Source of the DNA: a virus | IMG/VR virus record: IMGVR_UViG_3300030060_007264 | Location: 1,067 to 23,161 of that record | DNA length: 22,095 bases | Strand: one strand, 5' to 3' | Notes under the pieces: generated by a model | Databases searched by the model: none | What the model saw: only the letters and a program-made list of their open reading frames with translations | Told to the model about the DNA's origin: nothing | Translations under genes and position numbers: made by a program | Shown: piece after piece, positions 4,087-20,258 of the stretch | Position numbering within the stretch: the first letter of the stretch is position 1 | Layout of the letters: every line of letters begins with the position of its first letter

Positions 4087-5400
4087 TTATAACCTCTTTG
4101 TAATATCTTGCATTTCACCATAGTTTAATCCCATTTTGGATTTGGTAAAATGTTTTCCTTCCTCTAAAATTGATTTTATATCTTTCAAAGTTTCCACTCC
4201 ATCTTGTTGTGAGAAATCAAATAGGAAACTATCATATCCATATAAAACCAATTTAGTGTTCTTATTTAATAAATAGTCTTGAATTAATAAAATCTTCTTA
4301 ATATTTGATTCCGTCTCAAAAGCTTGAATCAAATAATTAAAAACTTTGTTTCTATTTAAATCTTCGTAATTATTATATGTAAGTTTCCTTCTATAAATAT
4401 CAGTATAAACACAATTATGTGTATTTATTTCATTCCATTTTGAATTAATGTATTCATGAACTTTTCTAAAAAATGGTACTTTTTCTCTGGTTTGTTTATC
4501 AATTCCACCATACAATAGTTTAAATGTTCTTTGTTTTGATTCTTCATATGAACATTCATAGTGTTCTGCAAGATGTTCATGTACTGAATTTTCACCAAAT
4601 TTATAATCAACTAAATCAGCGATTAATCTTAAATGATATGCATCAAAGTCAAATTCAACTAAATAATCATTTTCAGGCACTATGGATTTTCTCTTTTCGG
4701 GTGGTAGAGCTGCGAAATTAACAGTTCCAAATGCATTTGATGGACGACCTGTTGTTGTGGTAAGATTGTAGTTGGAATATAATTTACCATTCGATATATG
4801 TTTTTTAACTCTTACGTCAAATATATCACATACGTCATTGGATACCTTTACCCCATTTTTTTCTATATTGTAAAAAGCCTTTATCTTATCAAGTGCTCCA
4901 CTATTTTCAAACCACCCATCATCATCAATAAGGTTTTCTAAATCTTTCTTCACCCATTCCAATATCTTGTCTGTAACCTTATCACAATACTCTTTGTGTT
5001 TGCTTATTGGTATGATTTCGTTAAGTTTTTTTACATTGTAGTATTTATTACTCAAAAAATCCATTGCATTGTTTCTTACTTCCAAGTCTAAAGGTTTTCC
5101 ATGTAACCACCAATGTCCAATATTCACATCAAGAATACATCTATATTCAGGCAATATTGGTAATAATTTCTTAGCATCAGGTGTCATAACAATCTGTTTA
5201 TCATCCATTAGAAATGAATAATCAACCATGTATTGATTGGAATCTGGATGTTTTTGAGGTAAGATATAACTCTTTGATGAATCCCAATTATCCACATCAT
5301 GTCCATGAATTTCTCTAATATAAAGTAGCGACAACTTGTTATTCTTATGTAGTGGATGTAAGAATGGCTCTGAATATATGGGTATAACAATATAAATCAT
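4087..5400 (-). CDS. Divergent family A DNA polymerase-like protein without a clear exonuclease domain
   Basis: 437 residues, ATG at 5400. The ribosome site is weak. The C-terminal half carries the PolA signatures in order. TTTTGRPSN at 214-222 matches the T-x-T-G-R-x-S block. Motif A is D251-F-D-A-Y-H256-L-R258. Motif B is K289-x3-F293-x3-Y297-G298. An N-Y-L-I-Q359 block follows, and motif C is Y389-D390-S391. Aligned to E. coli Pol I, both catalytic aspartates (D705, D882) are kept, as are K758, F762 and Y766. The Pol I steric-gate Glu710 is replaced by His256, His881 by Tyr and Glu883 by Ser. The N-terminal 200 residues show no clear 3'-5' exonuclease motifs. It could be a small repair or translesion polymerase, a nucleotidyltransferase with another use, or an inactive relative. 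T4 itself replicates with a family B enzyme (gp43). Confidence 0.7.
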   Translation of the reverse strand: MIYIVIPIYSEPFLHPLHKNNKLSLLYIREIHGHDVDNWDSSKSYILPQKHPDSNQYMVDYSFLMDDKQIVMTPDAKKLLPILPEYRCILDVNIGHWWLHGKPLDLEVRNNAMDFLSNKYYNVKKLNEIIPISKHKEYCDKVTDKILEWVKKDLENLIDDDGWFENSGALDKIKAFYNIEKNGVKVSNDVCDIFDVRVKKHISNGKLYSNYNLTTTTGRPSNAFGTVNFAALPPEKRKSIVPENDYLVEFDFDAYHLRLIADLVDYKFGENSVHEHLAEHYECSYEESKQRTFKLLYGGIDKQTREKVPFFRKVHEYINSKWNEINTHNCVYTDIYRRKLTYNNYEDLNRNKVFNYLIQAFETESNIKKILLIQDYLLNKNTKLVLYGYDSFLFDFSQQDGVETLKDIKSILEEGKHFTKSKMGLNYGEMQDITKRL

Positions 5401-5447: not shown

Positions 5448-8400
5448 TTATCCTGCTGCACCTAAACAACAACAATTAGGGCCCTGTTCAAATCCAGCTC
5501 CATTTGTATTACACCAAGCAGTGCAACTATGTTCATTTCCATTCCAAATAACTTGACAAGCTTGTCCATCTGGATTATTATAATAATCAGATATGTTACT
5601 ATTCGATCCATCGTGACGACAAGGTATGGTTGCATCTGGATTGTACATTTCATCACCTGGTATCATGCATCCAATTATATTTACAGGCCCTTCAGATTCA
5701 TCTTCAGATGGTGTGGCTTCACTCACACAAGATTGTACATCTGCATTATAATGTTGATGTGATGGGTCTGTTGGCGCACCTAAATAATCACAACATGGTT
5801 TTTTAAGACATGTACCAACGCTGAACAAATCAAATTGAAAAACACAATATGTGGTTGGACAATCATCACTTCCAAAGATTTCAACCCCAACTTCATCACA
5901 AATATCACACGCAGGATCATAATATAAACAAGAACCATCATCAGTTGTAGCATTTAGATTGTAATTTGTAGCGTTCAAATCTGTACAACCTGGCCAATCA
6001 GGTATTGCTGGTGTTGTGAATGGTTGTAGTTCATCATTAACAATCACACCCTCAGTTGTTAATTGTGTTCGATCTGCGTTTTGGAATTGAATGAATAAAT
6101 CCCAATTTTCAGGATTACCTCGTAAGTATTGATCAATTTCACTTCTATAGTAGCTACCATAGTCATCATCTTCATATCCACTTAAATAATGAGTCAAATA
6201 ATAATTTATAGCCTCTTCTCCCTCACCATATTTATCTGTTGAAAAATCATGATTAGCATCATAATCATAATACTTTATGTGTTCAGGATCACTTACAACT
6301 GCCCAATTTTGCCCATTGGTTATTAAATAGTAGTCATTTCCATTTTCAAGCACTATACCAAAATAAGAAAAATCATCAGGCCTATTCATTATGGTGTTTT
6401 TAGTGTGTTGTTCATCAGTCGTTGTGTCACCAAATACTGGATCGAATTTACCTGTATTAAATGTTTCAAGAGTTTTTGATAAATCTTGAGAAAGTGTTTT
6501 TATCTTTTTAGTTGATAGTTTTGCTCCATATCCAATCAATGGCCCTTTTATTATTTTAACATCTTTTACGGCTCTATTACCTGAAGCTTTTGTATTTAAA
6601 ACTTTAACTTCCCTATTTGGGAATATTAACATCATACCCTCTTGTGGTAAACTGACTTGTTGCCAATCACTACTAAGATAACCTAAATTTGTGTCCAAAC
6701 CATATTTTTTTGGTGACTTACCAAAGTATTTATAACCCCATTTAATTTTAAAAACTTTATCAATGAATTGATAATTCTCGGCTGGTGAATAAGGAGTTAT
6801 TGATTTTAACCCAGCCATAAAATGTTCATTACTCACAAGTTCACCACCACCCTCAAGATCAGCGGTTGCAGCGAGCCTTTCTGGCCTTGGATTCTCCGTT
6901 GCCTCTTGACCAAGTGTCCACCATAAATTATCTTTTATATCTAATAAATTCAATTTTTCAAATATATTTCTTGGGTCATATACTGTGTCGGGTACCGAGT
7001 TACCTGTGGAGGAAGCTATACTTGGATTGTATGTTGATGATTTTATTTCAGGTCTTATTCTAAATTGAGTGTCCAATGTTGTATACCAACCATCAACTCC
7101 AATATCATGTGTTACTTTTGTTGTTTGAAAATAAACATTATCTTTATATATTTTTGGTAAATAATTAACTTTAAAAATATCACCTGGTTGTATACTTGAT
7201 ATTCCATAAATTGTTAAATTAAGGTTCATTGGTAATAAATTAGGAACTTCCTCTTTTACAACCTTAGATATAAAATATTTTCCATAATAATCTTTAGTGT
7301 CCTCAGCTACCTGAACACCAAGAGCTTGTTGTGCAAGTAAGTTTTCATCTATTTGTCGTTGTAATCTTGATTGAGCTGAACCATCAGTATCTTTGGTTTT
7401 GTCTTCACTCTCTTGTTCACTTTCAGTAAAATCTTGCTCCTCTAATTCTGTAGAGTTATACATACTACCAATAATATTATTTTCATTAGATTGTTTTCCT
7501 CTAATTGGATAAGTGTCATCTGATACTAAATCTAAAGTTTTTTGATATGATGAAGCTAAAAGTGCATTTTTATCAGCCGTTAATTGATTACCACGAAAAG
7601 CACTATTATCAGGAAGATATCTTATGGATAAATTATCTTTATCAACAGCTGTTAATCCCACGACATCATCAATTCTTTTACTAATTGGATTTGGTTTGTT
7701 ACCATGACTCATGGCTTGAATGGCTAACATGTCTCCAATACCACCATCGGGCATGTTGAATGAAACATCATATGATTTAACTATTGAGTTTCCAGATGTA
7801 ACGTCAAATTCAAAAATTTTATCAAATGCATCATTTTGTACACTTTGTTGTGTTTGATTATCACTCGAGTTTCCAGCATTAGATATTTTTTCTTGAATGT
7901 CTAATTTATTACCATCAATGATTGATAACTCAGAGTCAACCTGTCCTGATTTTAATCTTAAATCCATAATACCATATGAATCATCATTTATTTTTTCTAA
8001 CAAATCCTCTATAGCACTTTGAACGGAACTTGAACTTTTAAATGATTTTAATATCTCTTCAGCACTAATGAATAACTCTCTTATTGGTATTCTATTTTTT
8101 TGTTTATCAAGTTGAGCTTCATCATCAATATCATCCTCATAATTTGGTGTTTTTCCAATTTGAGATGAATAAGAATTGCCCTCATCATTTGGACTTGAAT
8201 TACCCCACCATTCTGGATATACACAGATTGGTGCACCTTCACCCGGCGCATCTAATGCTTTTTGATAGTCTAATAATTTAACATTATAAGTTGTAAAGTT
8301 TTTTGATGAATCAATTCGTGTTTGTAAATTATTACCTGTATTGATATTATTTTTTTTAGTTTTATCAATATCATTTCCAAATCCAAATTGAGAATTTATA

Positions 8401-9743
8401 ATTATATCCTCAAATAAACCAATTGAAATATAAGTGTCATTTATATTACCATCGTTGATAAAAACACCAGTTCTAATTGAATTGTTGTGTGAGGGTATAG
8501 TTTCATCAACTCCAGGCGTGAACTTATTACCTGATAATAATTTACGACTTAGATAATTTACGTTAGCGTTGAATGTTTTTACATCATCCGTTGAGGAGTT
8601 AGCGTTTGGTATATCTATTATTTGTTTTGCATCAATTTCATCATCAGTAATATTATCTTGAACGTCAGATACCAATGGATTGATGGCTAAATATTTAATG
8701 GTATGATTTAGAATATTTTCAATATTTAATTTTACAGTTCTATTTACTTCAAGTGTTAACATAGCAGCGTTAGCTGATGTTATGGTTAACTCACATTCAA
8801 CGCTACCATCTTGCATTATTTTAGAACTAAAATTATTAACAATACCATCAATAACATCCATGTTTGAATAATTTTCTGTTACGAATCCTTGTTTGGAATC
8901 ACCCTTGTCAGTTTCACCATATAGAAATGTCTTAATGTCTCCACTATCTATTAAGTCTTGAGGTTCGTATAATGAGTCTGTGTTTAAAGTTCCCCATCCA
9001 AAATCTAAGAATATTCTAGCGCCTGGTTTTAAAAAGTATTTACTATATATGTTTTCAAAATCATCAAAGTTGTGAACCATGAATCGTATACTTGTTTGTT
9101 TTCTAACACCAAACATATCTTGAGTTTCTGAATTAATTGAAATAATTCCAGCGTCAGGTTTTAAAAATGGATTTTTTGAGTTTTGATTTTGAAAAAATGT
9201 TGATTCATCTTCTTGATTATTAGGATTAAATAAATTAAAGTTATTGGTGTTCACTTGATAGATTTTAAAATCAAAAGTTTTGTCCTCAACATCTTGTCCA
9301 GTTTTTACAAACCACGCACCATTGGGATATTGCTCCGTTCCTTCAACCCAAACAACTTTAGAACCCTCATTTAATTGAGCTAAATTATTGGCCTTTCCTT
9401 CAGCTACAAGTTTTTCTTTTTCTATATATTCTTGATTAGACGTTGAATTTGGGGCTACTTCAAAAACAGCTAAGTTTTCAATCGCTTGTTCAGGTGTAAC
9501 CAACTCCACAGCCGTCCACATTCTAGCGAATGGAGTTCTTGATGATAAATCTGCAACACCATTGAAATCATTATTTATTAATTCACCAAACTCCCAATAA
9601 TTTTCATTATCATATTTTTTGTATCGTTTAGATGCAACCTCATCATTAGGGTGACGAGTTCGAGATGCAGCTAGTTGTCTAGCTTCAAGTACCTGTTTTA
9701 CTTTTATTGGTAAATCAGAACCAAATATTCTTTCATTAATCAT
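5448..9743 (-). CDS. Giant baseplate hub protein (gp27/gpD-like) with cysteine-rich C-terminus
   Basis: 1431 residues, ATG at 9743, six bases after the LysM gene. Residues about 190-330 include FLKPDAGIISINSE, ARIFLDFGWGT and ECELTITSANAAMLTLE, typical of hub beta-barrels. Residues about 815-900 include FISKVVKEEVP, LNLTIYGISSIQPGDIFKV and KVTHDIGVDGWYTTLDTQF, which match the second hub barrel of gp27, P2 gpD and VgrG proteins. From 900 to 1250 there is a mixed region of unknown fold. From 1252 to the end there are 18 cysteines in 180 residues. This part includes the module GCTDLNATNYNLNATTDDGS and a shorter relative near residue 1358, and ends NCCCLGAAG. T4 gp27 has only 391 residues. Hub identity is likely from motif and from position after tape measure, cap and LysM genes. 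The C-terminal part may form a spike or bind a partner. Confidence 0.75.
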   Translation of the reverse strand: MINERIFGSDLPIKVKQVLEARQLAASRTRHPNDEVASKRYKKYDNENYWEFGELINNDFNGVADLSSRTPFARMWTAVELVTPEQAIENLAVFEVAPNSTSNQEYIEKEKLVAEGKANNLAQLNEGSKVVWVEGTEQYPNGAWFVKTGQDVEDKTFDFKIYQVNTNNFNLFNPNNQEDESTFFQNQNSKNPFLKPDAGIISINSETQDMFGVRKQTSIRFMVHNFDDFENIYSKYFLKPGARIFLDFGWGTLNTDSLYEPQDLIDSGDIKTFLYGETDKGDSKQGFVTENYSNMDVIDGIVNNFSSKIMQDGSVECELTITSANAAMLTLEVNRTVKLNIENILNHTIKYLAINPLVSDVQDNITDDEIDAKQIIDIPNANSSTDDVKTFNANVNYLSRKLLSGNKFTPGVDETIPSHNNSIRTGVFINDGNINDTYISIGLFEDIIINSQFGFGNDIDKTKKNNINTGNNLQTRIDSSKNFTTYNVKLLDYQKALDAPGEGAPICVYPEWWGNSSPNDEGNSYSSQIGKTPNYEDDIDDEAQLDKQKNRIPIRELFISAEEILKSFKSSSSVQSAIEDLLEKINDDSYGIMDLRLKSGQVDSELSIIDGNKLDIQEKISNAGNSSDNQTQQSVQNDAFDKIFEFDVTSGNSIVKSYDVSFNMPDGGIGDMLAIQAMSHGNKPNPISKRIDDVVGLTAVDKDNLSIRYLPDNSAFRGNQLTADKNALLASSYQKTLDLVSDDTYPIRGKQSNENNIIGSMYNSTELEEQDFTESEQESEDKTKDTDGSAQSRLQRQIDENLLAQQALGVQVAEDTKDYYGKYFISKVVKEEVPNLLPMNLNLTIYGISSIQPGDIFKVNYLPKIYKDNVYFQTTKVTHDIGVDGWYTTLDTQFRIRPEIKSSTYNPSIASSTGNSVPDTVYDPRNIFEKLNLLDIKDNLWWTLGQEATENPRPERLAATADLEGGGELVSNEHFMAGLKSITPYSPAENYQFIDKVFKIKWGYKYFGKSPKKYGLDTNLGYLSSDWQQVSLPQEGMMLIFPNREVKVLNTKASGNRAVKDVKIIKGPLIGYGAKLSTKKIKTLSQDLSKTLETFNTGKFDPVFGDTTTDEQHTKNTIMNRPDDFSYFGIVLENGNDYYLITNGQNWAVVSDPEHIKYYDYDANHDFSTDKYGEGEEAINYYLTHYLSGYEDDDYGSYYRSEIDQYLRGNPENWDLFIQFQNADRTQLTTEGVIVNDELQPFTTPAIPDWPGCTDLNATNYNLNATTDDGSCLYYDPACDICDEVGVEIFGSDDCPTTYCVFQFDLFSVGTCLKKPCCDYLGAPTDPSHQHYNADVQSCVSEATPSEDESEGPVNIIGCMIPGDEMYNPDATIPCRHDGSNSNISDYYNNPDGQACQVIWNGNEHSCTAWCNTNGAGFEQGPNCCCLGAAG

Positions 9744-11744: not shown

Positions 11745-13580
11745 TTACATAGATTTCAAGGTATCACCAACTCTACTTCCAATACCACGTATAGCACTTC
11801 CACCAACACCAAAATAAGAAGACATTTCTTGTCTTAATTTTGATATCTCTGTTTTCACTAATTCTGTTTCTCTTTTTAATTCCATAATGTTACCACCACC
11901 ACCCCCAGCAACCATTCCAGCCACACCAGGCCCTGCTACAAAATCATCATTAGGACTCAAAGAAAACAAACCACCTTCACTTGGTGACACCAAAGTTTTA
12001 CCATTCGCACTAAACATATCACCAGCTGGAGTAGCGAATCCCGTGATAAGCGCAGCTATTCCTCCTAACACAGCAGGAGCTGCGGCGAAAGCTGCTAATG
12101 CACCTGGCCCTAAAGTACCAGCTGCGTTAAAATAAGCTAAGGCTGATGCTGATATGGCAGCTGCTGTATTTTTTACCACTATACCGGCTAACAACCCACT
12201 AACTAAAGGTAATAAACCAACTGTTTCATCAAGTCCTTTAATAAACGAACCAACACCTTCAACCAATCTAGCTATACTTGGACCTATAGAACCAGCTAAT
12301 TCCAGACCAAGACTTTTGAAATCATTTAATATTTTTGCAGTTGCTGTAATGGTGTCTTCAGGTATTTCGTTTTCCGCTGATAATCTATTGATTTCACCTT
12401 GTAAGGTTTTTTGTTCATTTTGTTGAGATACTAATTTTTGTATGTCTTCAACATTCAGTCCAAGCGCTTTGGACAATGCATCTCTTTGTATTCTATTTAA
12501 AGCGTTAAACTCTGCTTCACTACCAACTTGTTTTACTATTTCAGATTGTAAACCCTCTAAATCATTTGCTAGTGATAACTCTCTAGCTTTCTGTAAATTT
12601 AAATTTCTACCTAATAATATTGAGGCCTCTACCTCTGCATTTATTGAATCTTGAAAATTTAATAAACCATCAGCGGCTGAAGCCACAGATGACAATTCAA
12701 TACCTAATTTTCTAGCTTGTACAGCAGCTCTTAAAATATTCTCACCACCATCTTGAGAAAATCTTGCGAATAATCCTGTGTTAGTGGCCACATCACTTAA
12801 TACTTTATCAGGCGCTACATTATTTGCCTTAGCTAATTGTCGTGCTCCTAATAATAAATTTTCTGCTTGTTGTCCAGTTAATCCTTGAGTTTGTGTAAAT
12901 AACCCTACTAATTTAGTTGAATCATCTACACTCATACCAGTTGAGGCTGATATTCTAGCCACATTGTTTGATAATTTAGCAGCTTCAATTACTCCAATAC
13001 CGAAACTGTTTGCTAAATCTGATATAGACCTTTGAGCATTTTCACTAGTAAGCCCTACACTTACGAATTGTCTATTAGACTTTTCTAGTTCTTGTCGAAA
13101 CTCCGTTACACCAATTCCACCAAATTGGTCAGCTATGACTCTTTGTTGAGCTTCAAAGGTGGCTAATAAAGCTGTGGCTATTGTGAGTGGGTTTGTCAAG
13201 AAACCACTTATAGATGCACCCACATTACCAAATGCGTTATCTATTTCACTTACTGAGTCTTTTGCAGTTTGAAGTAATTTATTAGCTTGTTTTTGTAGTT
13301 TTAATTCAGCAACTTTATTTGTGATAATTTTTTGTTCATTTTTATATCTGTTAGCTGTTATGGTTTTACCTTGTTTATTTAAGCTATTTACTTTAGATAA
13401 AATATCTTTTTGTATGTTGGTTAATTTATTTAAATCATCCTCTGATTCAACCATTTCACTTAAAATTTTAGCTCTATCCTTAAGTGTTTTTACGTTACGA
13501 TTACTAGCTGCAGCTCTTTCCTGCTCTAATCTTAAAGCTTCTTTCGCAAAATCTATTTGTTCTCTAAAGTTGTCCGCCAT
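11745..13580 (-). CDS. Tail tape measure protein (gp29-like)
   Basis: 611 residues, close to T4 gp29 (590). ATG at 13580, nine bases after the preceding gene. Residues 1-115 are a charged helical, coiled-coil region. A hydrophobic segment follows near 127-142. A long helical middle contains several A-x-x-L-S repeats and SASTGMSVDDSTKLVG. A second hydrophobic, Ala/Gly-rich stretch spans about 454-517, with potential membrane-spanning helices. A Gly-rich run near the C-terminus precedes a final coiled coil, ELKRETELVKTEISKLRQE. This is the standard build of a tape measure, which sets tube length and takes part in DNA ejection. Its position after gp26 and a small protein, and before the cap and hub genes, supports this. 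Confidence 0.85.
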   Translation of the reverse strand: MADNFREQIDFAKEALRLEQERAAASNRNVKTLKDRAKILSEMVESEDDLNKLTNIQKDILSKVNSLNKQGKTITANRYKNEQKIITNKVAELKLQKQANKLLQTAKDSVSEIDNAFGNVGASISGFLTNPLTIATALLATFEAQQRVIADQFGGIGVTEFRQELEKSNRQFVSVGLTSENAQRSISDLANSFGIGVIEAAKLSNNVARISASTGMSVDDSTKLVGLFTQTQGLTGQQAENLLLGARQLAKANNVAPDKVLSDVATNTGLFARFSQDGGENILRAAVQARKLGIELSSVASAADGLLNFQDSINAEVEASILLGRNLNLQKARELSLANDLEGLQSEIVKQVGSEAEFNALNRIQRDALSKALGLNVEDIQKLVSQQNEQKTLQGEINRLSAENEIPEDTITATAKILNDFKSLGLELAGSIGPSIARLVEGVGSFIKGLDETVGLLPLVSGLLAGIVVKNTAAAISASALAYFNAAGTLGPGALAAFAAAPAVLGGIAALITGFATPAGDMFSANGKTLVSPSEGGLFSLSPNDDFVAGPGVAGMVAGGGGGNIMELKRETELVKTEISKLRQEMSSYFGVGGSAIRGIGSRVGDTLKSM

Positions 13581-13589
13581 TTAAATTCT

Positions 13590-13850
13590 CTATTTTACAA
13601 AATCACTCAATTTATATCTACTAAGTTTGATAGGTTTGTGATTGGGATTCAATTCTTTAAGTCTTTTGTTTAACGTGGTTTCTATATCATTAACACCTTT
13701 ATTCAAAGACATAAATCCAGATACTATTTTTTTATCTTTTCTAAGTATTTTTTCTTCTTTAGAAGGTATTCTTAACAATCTTGCTAATTTACTAAAAAAA
13801 CTCTCAGCTAAAATATTTTCATTGTTCATATATGACTTTTTCTTTGACAC
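13590..13850 (-). CDS. Small basic protein of unknown function between gp26 and tape measure
   Basis: 86 residues starting with GTG at 13850, six bases after an AGGAG. The protein is very lysine-rich and mostly helical. SFFSKLARLLRIPSKEEKIL forms an amphipathic helix, a second helix runs around VNDIETTLNKRLKEL, and the end has KPIKLSRYKLSDFVK. It is not secreted and has no known motif. Sitting immediately before the tape measure gene, and after the gp26 frameshift extension, it could be a tape measure-associated factor. That is inference from position only. It appears to be the first gene of the long operon, since a promoter-like motif lies 30 bases upstream. Confidence 0.7.
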   Translation of the reverse strand: MSKKKSYMNNENILAESFFSKLARLLRIPSKEEKILRKDKKIVSGFMSLNKGVNDIETTLNKRLKELNPNHKPIKLSRYKLSDFVK

Positions 13851-13906: not shown

Positions 13907-14140
13907 TTATCTTTTAAATCTTGGATTGATAGCCGGCTTTGAAACTTTTGGTTTATTTTTATTTCTTGACTCCTCTGCTCTTTTCTTTTCTTCTTGTTTA
14001 ACATCAAGAAGTTTTTTAAAATAGAATTGTCTTAAATAAGTAGGCATATTATAAACGTCAGAATGTGTAAATCCTTGTCCATAATAAATTAATTGAAATA
14101 TCTGTTCGTGAACTTTTGGTTTATCAGTCGATTGTAGGCC
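13907..14140 (-). CDS. Frameshift extension of gp26 (77 codons), probable chaperone C-terminal domain
   Basis: An open frame in -2/+1 relation to gp26 begins right at the T-run and runs 77 codons to TAA 13909-13907. Immediately upstream the frame is closed by TAA, three codons before the shift point, and the first internal ATG is codon 32, without a ribosome site. It therefore has no usable start of its own. The peptide has HEQIFQLIYYGQGFTHSDVY, then MPTYLRQFYFKKLL, a helical lysine/glutamate stretch and a basic end. A long first product plus a short, shifted, partly helical extension just before the tape measure gene is the layout of the G/GT tail assembly chaperones. The combined protein would have 319 (+1) or 320 (-2) residues. 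In T4, gene 51 follows 26; whether this domain corresponds to gp51 is open. Confidence 0.7.
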   Translation of the reverse strand, partial: GLQSTDKPKVHEQIFQLIYYGQGFTHSDVYNMPTYLRQFYFKKLLDVKQEEKKRAEESRNKNKPKVSKPAINPRFKR

Positions 14141-14867
14141 AAAAAAAGTTTACCGTCATTGGTATTTCTACCTTGACGGACTCACCTCCTATCTCTATTT
14201 CTTGTTCTAATTCAATGTCTGGTGATACTTTTCTTATCTCAACTCTCAAATGCATTGAATCTCTAGCCAGCATGTTTTGTGCTAAATTATTTATTGTTGA
14301 TTGATTATCATCACCATCAACAGAGGTTATTGTGTGCCTTAAACGTGTTGTTAATTCAGGCAATACAGTTGAACCAACTTTTTTAGATGCTGCTAAGTCT
14401 TTGTTTATAGAAGCCTCATCTTTACTAGTGAGTAATTTAAAAGTTATTTTTTTCTTTGAAATTGGTAATTCAGTCTCAAACTTATTTTCTTCCACACCAT
14501 CTGGTAGTTTTTTAAAAGGACAATCTGCTAAATTAAATGTATGATTAATTTTTTGTCCTGTTTTTGGATTGATAACTTCAGCGGTATACTCAGGCCCATA
14601 AGCTAACACCCTAGCGGCCACCATTATAGCGTTTTTATCTCCAAGTATTAAATCATCTGATTTAACACCATTGGTTAATATTAATGAATCCAACAATCTA
14701 TCAATTACTACACCTTTTTGAATTAAGTTTTGTGACGTTAAAATATCTTCTTCCTTCGCAGTCATATATTTTATTTCTATTTTACCGTCTTTTAATGGAT
14801 GATTATCTGGATATAACTTACCTTCACTTGGTAAGTCAATCATTTCACTCGAAAAACTATTTGACAT
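14124..14867 (-). CDS. 26: gp26-like baseplate hub assembly / tail chaperone protein
   Basis: 247 residues, ATG at 14867. The N-terminus has the family signature LPSEGKLYPDNHPLKDGKIE, followed by YMTAKEEDILTSQNLIQKG, LLDSLIL and the block LILGDKNAIMVAARVLAYG. The middle holds a CPFKKLPDG segment and a second beta-rich part. The end, VNFFWPTID, resembles T4-like gp26 termini from memory. T4 gp26 (208 residues) is required for baseplate hub assembly. The last seven codons contain a TTTTTTT tract where a -2 or +1 shift would replace WPTID with a 77-residue extension. The gene starts three bases after the muramidase stop, so the two are probably co-transcribed. Confidence 0.85.
   Translation of the reverse strand: MSNSFSSEMIDLPSEGKLYPDNHPLKDGKIEIKYMTAKEEDILTSQNLIQKGVVIDRLLDSLILTNGVKSDDLILGDKNAIMVAARVLAYGPEYTAEVINPKTGQKINHTFNLADCPFKKLPDGVEENKFETELPISKKKITFKLLTSKDEASINKDLAASKKVGSTVLPELTTRLRHTITSVDGDDNQSTINNLAQNMLARDSMHLRVEIRKVSPDIELEQEIEIGGESVKVEIPMTVNFFWPTID
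14141..14147 (-). other. Putative programmed frameshift site TTTTTTT
   Basis: In gene direction the site reads AAC TTT TTT TGG in the gp26 frame. Slipping back two bases or skipping one places ribosomes in the 77-codon downstream frame. A simple -1 slip gives a short product ending after 16 codons. A homopolymer sequencing or assembly error is the alternative explanation. Confidence 0.6.
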
Positions 14868-14870
14868 AAC

Positions 14871-15350
14871 TTAAACCTCCGTGGCTCTTTTGTACCAACC
14901 ATACCAAAATCTCTCTTGTTCTGGTTTCTTTATAACTAAATTAGCGAATCGTAACACACGATAGGCTCTAACTCTTTCAAGTTCTACATTTTGAATAGCT
15001 TTTAAAGTCATTGGCCCCATTCCACCATCTACATCAATCTTGTTTCTGTTTTTAGCATTAGCCGCTCTTTGTAATACCTTTACAGCTCCACCTCTACCAA
15101 AGTTTACACACATGTCAAAATAAATATGTCGTAAATGTTTTGGGACTTCATCACATTTAGCAGGTCTCCAATAATCTTGATGATATATTTTTTTGGCTTG
15201 TTCTATGGTAAGATTTTTGATGTCCACATTAGGATACCATCTTTTAGCGATTCCATACTTGGTTTCACCACCAGCATCATGTGGGTCGTTAACATAACCA
15301 CCTTCATGGTGTAAAACGTCTTCTATTATTTCTTCAAATGTAGTTTTCAT
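14871..15350 (-). CDS. GH108-type N-acetylmuramidase (phage lysozyme)
   Basis: 159 residues from ATG 15350. A longer frame to a TTG at 15413 exists but passes through the terminator hairpin and would add an unlikely leader, so it is rejected. Residues 5-60 match the GH108 fold: FEEIIEDVLHHEGGYVNDPH with the catalytic Glu at 16, GGETKYGIAKRWYP, then IYHQDYWRP. The C-terminal part has NFGRGGAVKVLQRAAN and DGGMGPMTLKAI, a peptidoglycan-binding type 3 domain. The enzyme would cut the glycan strands of the host wall. There is no signal peptide or membrane segment and no holin nearby, so release may need a holin elsewhere, or the enzyme may be a virion component. It sits between tail tube and gp26, among structural genes. 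No ribosome site is visible before the ATG. Confidence 0.8.
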   Translation of the reverse strand: MKTTFEEIIEDVLHHEGGYVNDPHDAGGETKYGIAKRWYPNVDIKNLTIEQAKKIYHQDYWRPAKCDEVPKHLRHIYFDMCVNFGRGGAVKVLQRAANAKNRNKIDVDGGMGPMTLKAIQNVELERVRAYRVLRFANLVIKKPEQERFWYGWYKRATEV

Positions 15351-15351
15351 T

Positions 15352-15370
15352 TCATATATAAATATATATA
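15352..15370 (-). promoter_or_regulatory. Promoter-like ATATTTATATATGA motif touching the muramidase start
   Basis: In gene direction this reads TATATATATTTATATATGA, and it ends one base before the ATG. If it is a -10 element, transcription would begin inside the gene or the mRNA would be leaderless. A two-codon frame ATG-AAA-TGA overlaps the real start. Confidence 0.4.
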
Positions 15371-15428: not shown

Positions 15429-15917
15429 TTAAAACTTAAGTATAGCGTAATCGTATCTTAAAGTTAGTGCTATTTCAACCGGGTCGCTTGTTTCAAAAGA
15501 TAAGTCACCAAAGTTAGCTGTTTGAATATAAGCTCCCTTTAGTTCCCATTCTTCAATAACATCACCCACAGGCCCTAAAAGGTTAAAAGTAATGTCTTTT
15601 TTATAAAAATCTGAGTAACCATCTCTACCAGTTACTGATTCGTGATGTAATCTAATCCATTCAATCACTTGTTGTGCACCTGATGGAACGATTGGGTCGT
15701 ATAATGTGATATCTAATGGTTGCCATCTTGACTTACCTTTAACATATCGTGTCACATTCATATGTTCCAATACCACCTCATCTGATTCCAATGATGGCCT
15801 ATTCATTGATTTAATCAAATAAGCGTTAATACCATCAATCTGCATTATGAACCGATTTTGTAGTTTCGGTTCAAAAGGTGTAAACATTATATCTTGTGGT
15901 TCTAATAATTCTGGCAT
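15429..15917 (-). CDS. 19: Tail tube protein (gp19-like)
   Basis: 162 residues, one fewer than T4 gp19. ATG at 15917 with AGGAG before it. It opens MPELLEPQDIMFTPFEPKLQ, then NRFIMQIDGINAYLIKSMNRP, a strand block RYVKGKSRWQPLDITLYDPI, VTGRDGYSDFYKKDITFNLL, and ends in a beta strand, VEIALTLRYDYAILKF. This is the typical gp19 fold with no insertions. The protein polymerises into hexameric rings around the tape measure, forming the inner tube through which DNA leaves. The gene is alone in its unit, with a promoter-like motif before it and a strong terminator after it. This suits independent high expression. Confidence 0.9.
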   Translation of the reverse strand: MPELLEPQDIMFTPFEPKLQNRFIMQIDGINAYLIKSMNRPSLESDEVVLEHMNVTRYVKGKSRWQPLDITLYDPIVPSGAQQVIEWIRLHHESVTGRDGYSDFYKKDITFNLLGPVGDVIEEWELKGAYIQTANFGDLSFETSDPVEIALTLRYDYAILKF

Positions 15918-16021: not shown

Positions 16022-18409
16022 TTACTCTGGAAAAGAAGCGCCTGTAGGTTGTATTGTAAAGTCTAATACAATGAACTCAGCAGTTCTTGTAGGTTGTAAG
16101 AATAATTGTCCAACTAATTGATTTCTATCAATTGTATCAGGTGTATTATTCGTTTCGTCCATCACCACCCTAAAAGCAGTTAATCCACTTTGAGATTGAA
16201 CGTTTTCCAAGAAAGGATTAACTATTGATAAAAATCTTCTCCGTGTTGCGGCTGTATTTTGTTCAAATACAAGGAATCTTGAAGAACTTGCTATAAACTT
16301 CTTCACATTTATCAATAATCGTCTAACATTCACTCTGTCCAATGCACTTGCTTTTTTCTGTAATGTTTTTTGCCCAAACACAGTCACTCCTTGTCCAGGA
16401 AATGTAGCGATTGGATTCACATTACTATCATACAAAGTATCTCTATCTGCTCGGGTAAGCTTTCTTTCAGCAAATGATGCGATGTCAATTGTACCCCTAT
16501 TCAATCCTGCTGGAGCGAACCATGGATGAGCCACTCTATCATTAAATGAGTAAACACCTGCTACCATTACTGATGGTGGCACCCATCTTTGGAAACCAGA
16601 TACTTGCGAATCAGGTATTTTTACCCAAGGCCAATACATGGCTGCGAAGTTAGAGTTTTTCTTTTTAGCTTCTGTCGTAGCATCTGCTACATTTTTATTA
16701 TACTCCACAGGATCTATAATAGCGAAACAATCTCCTCTGTCTTCACATACGTCAATTACCTTTGAAACCACACCACCATGAATTGAATTAATAATACCAG
16801 GCACTAAGATTAAATTAACGTCAAACTCGTCTTGATTTGATATTAAATCTAAAGCCTGAGTGTATTGATTGAACCCATTCGCGGCTCCATCATCACTTGG
16901 GTCTAAGCCTTGTGAATTATTTTCTGCTATATTTTCATAAAATGTTCTTGGATGTTGAACCGTCCCATCACTTCCACCTTCAAAACCACCATGTAAAGAA
17001 CCACTACCAGTTGAAGGTAAAGAGGCAGATGCTGCTGGTATTCTAACATCACCATTTTCATCAATATAATCAATGGTTGATTCATTAACACTATCTAAAT
17101 ATACATAATTTGATTTTCTAGCATATGAGCCGGTAAGTCTTAAATATGGTTTACCATTTTCATCAGTAGCGATTGTAAACACTTGGTCACCCACTGCTTT
17201 AGCTATGTAATTTGGTGAATTCGGGTCTAGATTAACATTATTAAAAGTTTCCAATACTTGTTTTCTTTTAATAGTATCATCACCTCTTCGTATCACTAAG
17301 TTGAAAGTACCTTTATTGTTAACTCTTGATGGTATTTCAAATCTTACGTTGTCAGCTGAACCACTCAATAGAATACTATTCTCACCAACAGGTCCTGCAC
17401 TGTTCATTATTTCACCATGTGAAAATGTTCTTAATACAAATGGTTCTTTTGCTGCTGGTGATAATCCATTAGCTGTCTGTCCAAAATCTAATCCTCCACC
17501 TGAGCCACTTGTTGTAGCTATATTTGAAATCGCTGGATCTGTTACATGACCAGTCATAGTAAAATGAAAGTCACCTTGTGAACCATGACTTAATGGAGTT
17601 AATTGAGCAGATGACGAATTAGCAACAAATGTTCCTAAATTACCATTCACTAATGTATTTGCATTAACTCCACCCTTACTAGCTGTTAAACCAACTAGAT
17701 TAGCACCATCGGTTGATGCACTAACGGGTAAATTGTGAAGAGACGCACTACGATTAATAGCATCTCTTAAATTTTCTGCATTTAGTTTTCTACTATTTGC
17801 TACAACCGCATGGGATGCAGAGTTAACATAAATCACCGTTGCTGTATCAGCAGTAACTCCATCTATTGTTGTCTCACCTGTTGTTCCAGGCTTTTGAGCA
17901 GACGCTGTAAATACAAACTTCACTGTATTTCCATTATTTGGAGTGATTGAACATGAGGTAGAATTAAGTGTTGAACCTTCTTTTGCACCACCCTCAATTT
18001 CTGTGATTGTGAAACTACCAGTATTGTGAGCTCCACCTCCAACTATAGATGGGTCGATAGATGCAGACACTGTGGCTTTAGCACTATCATACTCACCAGC
18101 TAGTATTCTAACAACAGTCAATTTATCACTATTTTTTAAATATTGTTCAGCTGTGTGTGATGTTAAAAATTGATTAACACTACCTGTAGTTTCTGTTCCC
18201 GTACCAGTATACACATCAGAGCCACTTTCAAAGGTTGTCCCAAATATTTGTTGATACTCTGAGAATGATGTAACCACGGTTGGAACTAAAACAGGCCCTT
18301 TTACCGTTGGGCCTATTACACAAGCCCCAATTTCAGCAACAGCCGCTGGTAAAAATGTTTGGTCTACTTCATTAGTAAAAACACCGGGACTAACTATTTT
18401 TTCTGCCAA
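16022..18409 (-). CDS. 18: Tail sheath protein, long paralogue with inserted domain
   Basis: 795 residues starting with TTG at 18409, behind GGAG. Only 16 bases separate it from the first sheath gene, so the two are co-transcribed. The N-terminus MAEKIVSPGVFTNEVDQTFL and the block LTSHTAEQYLKNSD match the first copy. The last 141 residues differ from it at four positions only and end TIQPTGASFPE. Compared with the short copy it carries about 185 extra residues around 118-305, rich in T, S, G, N and A. This stretch includes a repeat-like segment, ENLRDAINRSASL with TVIYVNSAS before it, typical of small surface beta domains in phage proteins. In T4, gp18 (659 residues) forms the contractile sheath, and its middle domains point outward. 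The insertion would therefore lie on the outside of the sheath. Confidence 0.9.
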   Translation of the reverse strand: MAEKIVSPGVFTNEVDQTFLPAAVAEIGACVIGPTVKGPVLVPTVVTSFSEYQQIFGTTFESGSDVYTGTGTETTGSVNQFLTSHTAEQYLKNSDKLTVVRILAGEYDSAKATVSASIDPSIVGGGAHNTGSFTITEIEGGAKEGSTLNSTSCSITPNNGNTVKFVFTASAQKPGTTGETTIDGVTADTATVIYVNSASHAVVANSRKLNAENLRDAINRSASLHNLPVSASTDGANLVGLTASKGGVNANTLVNGNLGTFVANSSSAQLTPLSHGSQGDFHFTMTGHVTDPAISNIATTSGSGGGLDFGQTANGLSPAAKEPFVLRTFSHGEIMNSAGPVGENSILLSGSADNVRFEIPSRVNNKGTFNLVIRRGDDTIKRKQVLETFNNVNLDPNSPNYIAKAVGDQVFTIATDENGKPYLRLTGSYARKSNYVYLDSVNESTIDYIDENGDVRIPAASASLPSTGSGSLHGGFEGGSDGTVQHPRTFYENIAENNSQGLDPSDDGAANGFNQYTQALDLISNQDEFDVNLILVPGIINSIHGGVVSKVIDVCEDRGDCFAIIDPVEYNKNVADATTEAKKKNSNFAAMYWPWVKIPDSQVSGFQRWVPPSVMVAGVYSFNDRVAHPWFAPAGLNRGTIDIASFAERKLTRADRDTLYDSNVNPIATFPGQGVTVFGQKTLQKKASALDRVNVRRLLINVKKFIASSSRFLVFEQNTAATRRRFLSIVNPFLENVQSQSGLTAFRVVMDETNNTPDTIDRNQLVGQLFLQPTRTAEFIVLDFTIQPTGASFPE
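17223..17269. repeat. 47-base stretch identical in the two sheath genes, copy in the long gene
   Basis: This tract encodes KRKQVLETFNNVNLDPN and is base-for-base the same as 19660-19706, while flanking codons differ at third positions. It is a candidate gene-conversion tract. Confidence 0.8.
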
Positions 18410-18425: not shown

Positions 18426-20258
18426 TTACTCTGGAAACGATGCACCAGTTGGTTGAATTGTAAAGTCTAATACAATGAACTCAGCTGTTCTTGTTGGTTG
18501 TAAAAACAACTGGCCTACTAATTGATTTCTATCAATTGTATCCGGCGTGTTGTTGGTTTCATCCATAACAACTCTAAATGCATTTAGTCCACTTTGTGAT
18601 TGTACTTGCTCTAAAAATGGGTTAACAATGCTCAAGAATCTTCTTCTTGTAGCTTGTGTGTTTTGCTCAAACACTAAAAATCTAGATGAAGAAGCGATAA
18701 ACTTCTTAACTCTAATTAATAATCTTCTAACATTTACTCTATCCAACGCCGAAGCCTTCTTTTGTAGAGTTTTCTGTCCAAATACCGTTACACCTTGTCC
18801 AGGAAATGTCGCTATTGGGTTTACGTTTGAATCATATAATGTATCCCTATCAGCTTGAGTTAGTTTTCTTTCAGCTTGAATAGCCACATCAATACCACCA
18901 CGATTCAAACCTGCTGGAGCAAACCAAGGATGAGCTACTTTATCATTGAAAGCATAAATTCCACCTAATACAACTGATGGTGGCACCCACCTTTGAGTTC
19001 CACTAACCAATGTATCAGGAACTTTAATCCATGGCCAATACATGGCTGCGAAATTAGAATTTTCCTCTTCAGCTTCCGTTGTAGCATCTGCTACATTTTT
19101 ATCATATTGCACTGGATCGATAATTGCAAAACAATCACCTCTATCCTCACACACATCAATTACTTTAGTTGTAATGGTTGAATGAACATCATGTAAAATA
19201 CCAGGTGTAAGAATTAAGTTAACATCATATTCATCTTGATTTGATAATAAGTCTAAAGCTTGATTGTAAGCATTAATACCTCTATCTTTATTACTTACAT
19301 CAATACTAAATCCTTGTGTTTGTGCAACTATTAATTCATAAAAATTAGCTGGTTTAGCACTATCGTGTCCTTCATGAACACCAAGAGCGTTAAATCCACT
19401 TTGTCCGTTTAATCCCCCTTTAAATGCACCACGAACAGAACCACTTCCACTCTGTGGTAAAGAAGCTGATAAAGCACCAAGTCTAACATCACCATTCTCA
19501 TCAACGTAGTCGATAGTGGTTCTAATGTCAGATACTCTAACAAACTTGGATTTATTTGGAAAATCACCATTTAATTTTATAAATGGTTTTAAATTCTCAT
19601 CTGTTCCAATTGAATTAAATTGAGTTCCAACAGCTTTTCCAATAAAGTTTGGAGTATTTGGGTCTAGATTAACATTATTAAAAGTTTCCAATACTTGTTT
19701 TCTTTTTTCGCTATCATCACCTCTACGAATTATCAAATTAAAACTACCCTTTGATACATTTACACCATTAATTTCATATCTAATATTATGTTCAGAACCA
19801 CTTGGTAACAAATCATTTGCATTAACAGTACTACTACTGTTATTCATTATTGTTCCGTCTGATAATGTTGTTAATACAAATGCAGCGTTTCCATCATCAC
19901 CATTGGAGAAAGATGGACCTGGAGTGTCACCACCACCAAAACTACCTGTTGGTACGTTTGCAGTCGCTGGGCCAAATGTCCCATCCATTATCCTCACAAC
20001 TGTTAAAGTATCACTATTTTTTAAATATTGCTCAGCTGTGTGTGATGTTAAAAATTGAAATGAGTTCGAACCACTTTTAAACACATCTCCGAATTTCTGT
20101 TGAAAGTCTGAGAATGATGTTACAATGGTTGGTACTCCTGCGGGTCCTTTTACTGTAGGCCCTATTAAAGCTGCTCCAATATCTGTAACAGCTGCGGGTA
20201 AAAATGTTTGATCTATTTCATTGGTAAAAACACCGGGGGAAATTATTTTCTCGGCCAT
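18426..20258 (-). CDS. 18: Tail sheath protein, short paralogue
   Basis: 610 residues, ATG at 20258 with GGAG before it, near the length of T4 gp18 (659). It starts MAEKIISPGVFTNEIDQTFL and shares VPTIVTSFSDFQQKFG, LTSHTAEQYLKNSD, the IIRRGDD block, KVIDVCEDRGDCFAIIDPVQ, AAMYWPWIKVPD and GLNRGGIDV with the second copy. The C-terminal part, with FGQKTLQKKASALDRVNVRR and RTAEFIVLDF, is nearly identical to that copy. It forms the contractile sheath by family knowledge. Having ATG, a regular size and the first position, it is probably the major sheath subunit, and the long copy a minor or specialised one (inference). Confidence 0.92.
   Translation of the reverse strand: MAEKIISPGVFTNEIDQTFLPAAVTDIGAALIGPTVKGPAGVPTIVTSFSDFQQKFGDVFKSGSNSFQFLTSHTAEQYLKNSDTLTVVRIMDGTFGPATANVPTGSFGGGDTPGPSFSNGDDGNAAFVLTTLSDGTIMNNSSSTVNANDLLPSGSEHNIRYEINGVNVSKGSFNLIIRRGDDSEKRKQVLETFNNVNLDPNTPNFIGKAVGTQFNSIGTDENLKPFIKLNGDFPNKSKFVRVSDIRTTIDYVDENGDVRLGALSASLPQSGSGSVRGAFKGGLNGQSGFNALGVHEGHDSAKPANFYELIVAQTQGFSIDVSNKDRGINAYNQALDLLSNQDEYDVNLILTPGILHDVHSTITTKVIDVCEDRGDCFAIIDPVQYDKNVADATTEAEEENSNFAAMYWPWIKVPDTLVSGTQRWVPPSVVLGGIYAFNDKVAHPWFAPAGLNRGGIDVAIQAERKLTQADRDTLYDSNVNPIATFPGQGVTVFGQKTLQKKASALDRVNVRRLLIRVKKFIASSSRFLVFEQNTQATRRRFLSIVNPFLEQVQSQSGLNAFRVVMDETNNTPDTIDRNQLVGQLFLQPTRTAEFIVLDFTIQPTGASFPE
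19660..19706. repeat. 47-base stretch identical in the two sheath genes, copy in the short gene
   Basis: Partner of 17223-17269. A second shared tract (20009-20058 against 18124-18173) has one mismatch in 50 bases. Confidence 0.8.

Follow-up and report, generated by a model that had tools for sequence, protein, structure and literature searches.

How might a reading frame of 77 codons be translated when it has no start codon of its own and opens only a few codons before the end of another gene? This question is raised by gene 26 in the window, the 22,095-nucleotide stretch of the IMG/VR virus record IMGVR_UViG_3300030060_007264 (positions 1,067 to 23,161 of that record). Gene 26 lies on the minus strand (14124..14867), and its 247-aa 0-frame product falls within PF12322 (E 1.3e-8, 35.2 bits against a cut-off of 24.5) and phrog_150 (E 2.6e-12), the same family as both gp26 and gp51 of phage T4; it would be a short tail assembly chaperone of the G type (TAC-N). 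Near the end of the gene is a run of seven T, at which ribosomes very probably skip one base. We hold with high confidence that gene 26 encodes a tail assembly chaperone whose short and long forms are produced through a programmed +1 shift at this T-run, a reading built on comparison with relatives, namely on the conserved shifted extension, a rule followed by the slip sites, selection on the extension, gene order and homology to T4 gp26/gp51.

The shifted frame at the end of gene 26

Read on the minus strand, the gene closes with GTA AAC TTT TTT TGG CCT ACA ATC GAC TGA TAA, where the shift site TTT TTT_TGG contains the TTTTTTT run at 14141..14147 (-). The TGG (Trp; 14139..14141, -) is the codon that would stand in the A site in the 0 frame, the 0-frame stop is the TGA at 14124..14126 (-), and a TAA (14123-14121) comes immediately after it. 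In the +1 frame, which is also the -2 frame, a TAA (14150..14152, -) is followed by ACT TTT TTT GGC, and from this GGC (14140-14138), which takes the place of TGG after the shift, 77 codons are open (13910..14140, -) up to the TAA at 13907..13909 (-), the stop of the long product. The upstream +1 TAA and the 0-frame stop together confine the shift to about eight codons, and such an open frame was obtained by chance in 0.08% of trials in which the local sequence was resampled (Markov-1).

The observation of a shifted frame at the T-run is real. It was made in a preliminary description of this DNA, according to which seven T near the end of gp26 lead into an extension of 77 codons that precedes the tape measure gene; the sequence agrees, and the arrangement is conserved in relatives. 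The same description stated that the extension frame has no start and that its first ATG is at codon 32, which is correct and can be extended, since this ATG is within the conserved core and neither GTG nor TTG is found ahead of it. The 319 residues that it gave for the long product are right for a +1 shift. Two of its distances have been revised: the TAA upstream of the T-run is present, one codon before it rather than three, and the -1 frame is indeed a dead end, after 17 codons rather than 16.

Conservation of the extension across relatives

Relatives were gathered through a gp26 search of IMG/VR (at least 80 loci) and six further searches from distant members (another 190 loci), to which eight phage records were added, giving 278 collected loci, 273 of them with a readable gp26 stop. 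Whether a T-run-type site and the shifted frame are conserved in gp26 homologues had been proposed beforehand as a check, and the extension is present in all 273 readable loci among the matches listed. It is found in the +1 frame in 182 loci, in the -1 frame in 89, and behind its own ATG in two (L211 and L216), meaning that 271 of the 273 carry it in a shifted frame that overlaps the gene end at a conserved slip site. Of the 182 +1 loci, 180 have an extension that the profile finds in the +1 frame and in no other. The remaining two are the copies of the Rhodothermus phage RM378, both with 67 open +1 codons too diverged for profile recognition; with no significant profile match, they count as an open frame alone, and the number of profile-recognised extensions is 271 of 273. 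Neither a homologue that lacks the extension nor one that carries it in the 0 frame was seen among the matches listed (273 loci and seven MAG contigs).

The +1 arrangement is also found outside the uncultured records, in the isolates immuto, Mel-JY01, SP-15, LIS04, GXN1 and RM378. Seven of eight homologues on bacterial MAG contigs are readable and all seven are of the +1 type; the contigs with a gp26 homologue are mostly from Flavobacteriales and other Bacteroidota, and the hosts are likely Bacteroidota. All 280 readable relatives among the matches listed carry either such a shifted arrangement or something that stands in for it. Past the 0-frame stop, the extension has a median dN/dS of 0.31 (486 pairs, 83% of them below 0.5) and, judging from these rates, is under purifying selection.

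The slip site and the direction of the shift

The site is conserved over 175 regular +1 loci, in which a Phe codon in second position is always TTT. These sites comprise TTT TTT TGG CCT (104 loci), TTT CTT TGG CCT (35), TTC TTT TGG CCT (17), TTT TTT TAC CCT (11), TTT CTA TGG CCT (4) and four single variants, and other +1 loci have TTT CTA TTC (LR756508), TTT TTT CAC (SP-15), TTT TTT AGT (LIS04), TTC TTT CGT (GXN1) and TTT TTT TGG (RM378). Every +1 site has an in-frame TTT followed by T or C, and it follows that tRNA-Phe can step one base on and re-pair. When the Phe codons of the same genes were used as background, the restriction to TTT proved to be strong: at Phe-Phe sites all 93 de-replicated loci have TTT as codon 2, against a TTC background of 20% (P ~1e-9), with TTC tolerated at codon 1 (8/93 loci), and at Phe-Leu sites all 23 loci have TTT for Phe, against a background of 31% (P ~2e-4). 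The Firmicute-type phages SP-15, LIS04 and GXN1 have TTT at the site though they mostly use TTC elsewhere. The shift is pinned to the slip site by close flanking stops: in 27 loci the end of the upstream +1 stop lies 8 nt ahead of the A-site codon, and the 0-frame stop comes within 9-24 nt.

The window's own seven T fit a +1 and a -2 shift alike, and the direction has been read from the relatives. A -2 ribosomal shift, which would give a product of 320 aa with one extra Phe, leads into the same frame as +1, and on seven T the tRNA-Phe re-pairs either way; a shift of this kind was reportedly described by Xu et al. in 2004 for the tail chaperones of phage Mu, and the preliminary description, which gave -2 or +1 as the needed shift, pointed to the Mu-like phages. 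At the TTC TTT TGG/TAC sites (18 loci from several lineages), a -2 movement would place tRNA-Phe on UCU, yet the same extension is kept, and at TTT CTA TGG it offers tRNA-Leu no plausible pairing, whereas TTT_C works for +1. The re-pairing of the Mu type is thus available to the seven T of the window but fails at the TTC TTT TGG sites of its relatives, and the -2 route is quite unlikely. The site variants instead leave a +1 ribosomal shift as the reading that fits all sites.

Other candidate signals were considered at these sites. An RF2-like shift at CTT_TGG, which is possible for 36 TTT CTT sites, was rejected, TTC CTT never having been seen among shifting loci; TTT_C is preferred because the sole TTC CTT locus (L216) has a start codon instead. 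No stimulator was found: the RNA downstream of the site, folded for the window alone, folds worse than its shuffles (z +1.74), and Shine-Dalgarno-like motifs are not enriched upstream of the site (14 seen against 20.6 expected). No phage-borne tRNA and no known RNA element were found in the window.

Other routes to the extension

It is also conceivable that the extension is a separate small protein, made from an internal start or by termination-reinitiation, and there are loci at which this has some appeal. In L211 and L216 the ATG of the extension is directly past the gp26 stop, in KVP40 a 55-codon gp51-like ORF abuts gp26, and some +1 loci carry a shifted-frame ATG near or before the site. 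In the window, however, the first possible start falls too late, inside the conserved core, and in 117 of the 175 +1 loci an ATG is absent or is found at extension codon 15 or later; moreover, the invariant slip site would be left unexplained. As a general account, a separate protein is very unlikely.

Homologues with their own start had been named in advance as a finding that would speak against a frameshift, as had homologues without the extension. The latter were not encountered among the matches listed and the former are the two loci L211 and L216, whose sites are degraded to TTC TTG TAT and TTC CTT TGG CCA, respectively; because their slip site is degraded, they support the site rule rather than refute it. 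Both branch together inside the +1 clade of the gp26 tree, which suggests that the shift was lost there when an own start was gained.

Slippage of the RNA polymerase on the T-run would yield mRNAs with one U fewer or two U more, each of which could be read in one frame, and in principle a run of seven T could slip in this way. The sites TTTCTTTGG, TTCTTTTGG and TTTCTATGG have T-runs of no more than four, yet their arrangement is unchanged, and TTT CTT TGG and TTC TTT TGG are without the required T-run. The rule is also codon-specific (codon 1 or 2 must be TTT) and so tracks the reading frame, which makes polymerase slippage highly improbable. Homopolymer runs such as that of the window are prone to sequencing error, but an accident, be it a sequencing indel or a decayed gene, is scarcely credible for a site that recurs in 182 +1 loci, in isolates and MAGs alike, with an extension under purifying selection, and the conservation of the extension across homologous loci rules out a miscount of the T-run in the reads.

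Proposed mechanism and predicted structures

In the programmed +1 shift proposed here for this contractile-tailed phage, most ribosomes would read through to the TGA. The resulting short form of 247 aa would coat the tape measure protein, in analogy to lambda G. In a minority of ribosomes, with tRNA-Phe on UUU in the P site and UGG waiting in the A site, the tRNA would slip one base forward, from UUU_U to UUU, and GGC would be read next. This slipped reading would add a 77-aa helical domain (T-type) and produce the 319-aa long form, which, like lambda GT, may bring subunits of the tail tube to the tape measure. We infer that it is the ribosome and not the polymerase that slips, and likewise the ratio of the two forms and their binding partners.

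The short form and the extension were modelled as separate chains. For the short form, the AlphaFold2 model (pLDDT 90.8) has its best PDB match in 2ob9, the HK97 tail assembly chaperone (Z 5.6, rmsd 3.4, 79/107 residues), which is the top of 680 aligned chains with the next row at Z 3.8, although a Z below 8 can mean a mere common arrangement. In this model, gp26 residues 1-90 appear to resemble HK97 gp14, as a modest fold match, and no match was found when the gp26 sequence was compared with solved structures. In the model of the extension, helices are predicted at residues 4-19, 26-30 and 34-61. The second-best fold match of the short-form model (Z 3.8) is 5ir0, ORF19 from a PICI-like element of Vibrio cholerae, which may mimic a chaperone.

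Gene order in the tail region

Tail assembly chaperone genes are expected between the tail tube and tape measure genes, and gene 26 is in this position. The tail tube protein is gp19-like (15429..15917, -; phrog_4542 E 6e-28), and the probable tape measure protein of 611 aa (11745..13580, -) was recognised by its 29% identity over 306 aa (E 1e-21) to the protein annotated as tape measure in Flavobacterium phage immuto. The order in the window is tail tube, a GH108 endolysin-like gene (14871..15353, -; PF05838 E 9e-28), gp26, extension, an 86-aa ORF from the ORF list (13590..13850, -) and tape measure; in immuto it is tube, gp26 and tape measure. The classic adjacency is thus broken in the window by the GH108 gene and by the 86-aa ORF, for which no confident family was found by Pfam and PHROG profile comparison. 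That a short and long pair of the G/GT type precedes the tape measure gene had been proposed from the letters of the window, and it is supported by this layout together with the shifted extension.

Several other features of the region may be recorded here. The GH108 endolysin-like gene is placed inside the tail assembly cassette. Two adjacent tail sheath genes (16022-18409 and 18426-20258, -) are 69% identical over 518 residues, with C-terminal 150 residues that are nearly identical, which may reflect a recent duplication or gene conversion, perhaps with a mixed sheath. In the baseplate region, 5448-9743 (-) encodes a 1431-aa protein without a Pfam match that has Cys-rich GCTDLNATNYNLNATTDDGSCLY-type repeats near its C-terminus, and a 437-aa ORF at 4087-5400 (-), also without a Pfam match, contains a DYLVEFDFDAYHLRLIADLV stretch resembling a family A polymerase motif.

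Probable modes of production within the gp26/gp51 family

The extension of gp26 is arranged differently in different branches of the family. In Syn9, P-SSM2 and HTVC008M, it follows gp26 in the -1 frame, and all 80 loci with cyanophage-type -1 sites read T TTT TTC there. The records of Syn9 and HTVC008M annotate the extension as a short 'gp51' or baseplate hub assembly catalyst with a later start of its own. Profiles connect the +1-type extension to that of the cyanophages (E 1.3e-5) and the latter to the C-terminus of gp51 (4.4e-5); the +1 type and gp51 compared directly do not match significantly, nor does the window extension match T4 gp51 or RM378 directly by HMM. The Firmicute-type and LR756511-type extensions join by profile at 5e-8 and 3e-8.

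When the four labels (+1, -1, own start, duplication) are placed on the gp26 tree, they require 5 changes, against 48 in shuffles, and the direction of the shift is constant within clades, with the deep long branches (T4, RM378) placed unsurely. These data probably reflect one chaperone pair with at least four modes of production, namely +1 at UUU_Y, -1 at U_UUU_UUC, a detached gene with its own start, and gene duplication, in which the direction has switched and the products have been kept. Under this four-mode reading, the +1 mode would belong to a large branch that includes Bacteroidota phages, Thornevirus and RM378, the -1 mode to cyanophages and, separately, to a giant-phage clade, the own start to L211/L216 and possibly KVP40, and duplication to T4.

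The giant-phage clade (LR756511 group, L088, L223-L230) falls among the +1 branches of the tree but has a -1 shift itself; in L088, the 0 frame continues about 20 codons beyond the site. T4 gp26 also matches the gp28 family (phrog_1140, E 9e-4), and the chaperone fold may have another relative in gp28.

Frameshifting in tail chaperones is the classic case of conserved recoding in phages, to which the T4 group was long listed as the exception (PMC5009743). The gp26 family is frameshifted in nearly all sampled branches bar T4 itself, in two opposite directions, which suggests that the two genes of T4 are the derived state. A chaperone role for T4-type gp26, advanced in the preliminary description as a recasting, holds up but is not new: according to its citation by PRFect (PMC10885494), Vladimirov, Gautam and Davidson (2022) reported that T4-like phages carry a short TAC gene and a long one, and PMC12846349 credits the same work with poly-T -1 sites in the chaperone genes of such phages. 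No report of +1 shifting in the gp26 family was found in the literature searched, and the apparent novelty is the +1 mode of a large branch that is mostly uncultured, together with the change of mode inside a single family. The rule for this mode (TTT in frame with T or C as the next base, TTC excluded, no evident helper structure) describes a simple bacterial +1 signal and gives gene finders a means to treat a gene end that is now mis-annotated. A shifted extension also explains why the cyanophage 'gp51' was annotated by Sullivan et al. as only the last fifth of T4 gp51 (PMC3037559).

Comparison with known systems

In lambda, the short form coats the tape measure protein and the long form brings tube subunits (PMC5009743). 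Lambda G/GT, P2 E/E' and HK97 gp14 share with the window the layout, the short and long products and the position, with a modest fold match in the case of HK97 gp14; they differ in using a -1 shift, and no sequence similarity was found. The tail chaperone of the haloarchaeal myovirus HSTV-2 is also very likely made by a +1 shift (PMC5009743), the likeness drawn here being one of shift direction alone.

At the level of the site, the closest parallels are UUU_C, which is an experimentally supported +1 site in influenza A PA-X and has been proposed for amalgaviruses (PMC5052127), and RF2, for whose type of +1 shifting UUU is among the supporting codons (PMC10885494). At the UUU_CGN of influenza A PA-X and amalgaviruses and at the RF2 CUU_UGA, the P-site tRNA re-pairs one base on, as is proposed here, and UUU_C sites occur in gp26 loci too, one such example being the UUC UUU CGU of GXN1. 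The gp26 loci differ in that they are a bacterial phage gene with mostly UGG in the A site, whereas UUU_CGN and RF2 sites use CGN or a stop.

Within the family itself, Syn9, P-SSM2 and HTVC008M have the same pair in the same place before the tape measure gene, with a shifted extension as in the window, although theirs is reached by the canonical T TTT TTC -1 shift and that of the window by +1. T4 gp51, a gp26 paralogue, has an additional part at its C-terminus that matches the cyanophage extension, which in turn matches that of the window. In T4, two genes provide the two forms and there is no frameshift, whereas in the window a single gene of the same family would provide both forms through a +1 shift.
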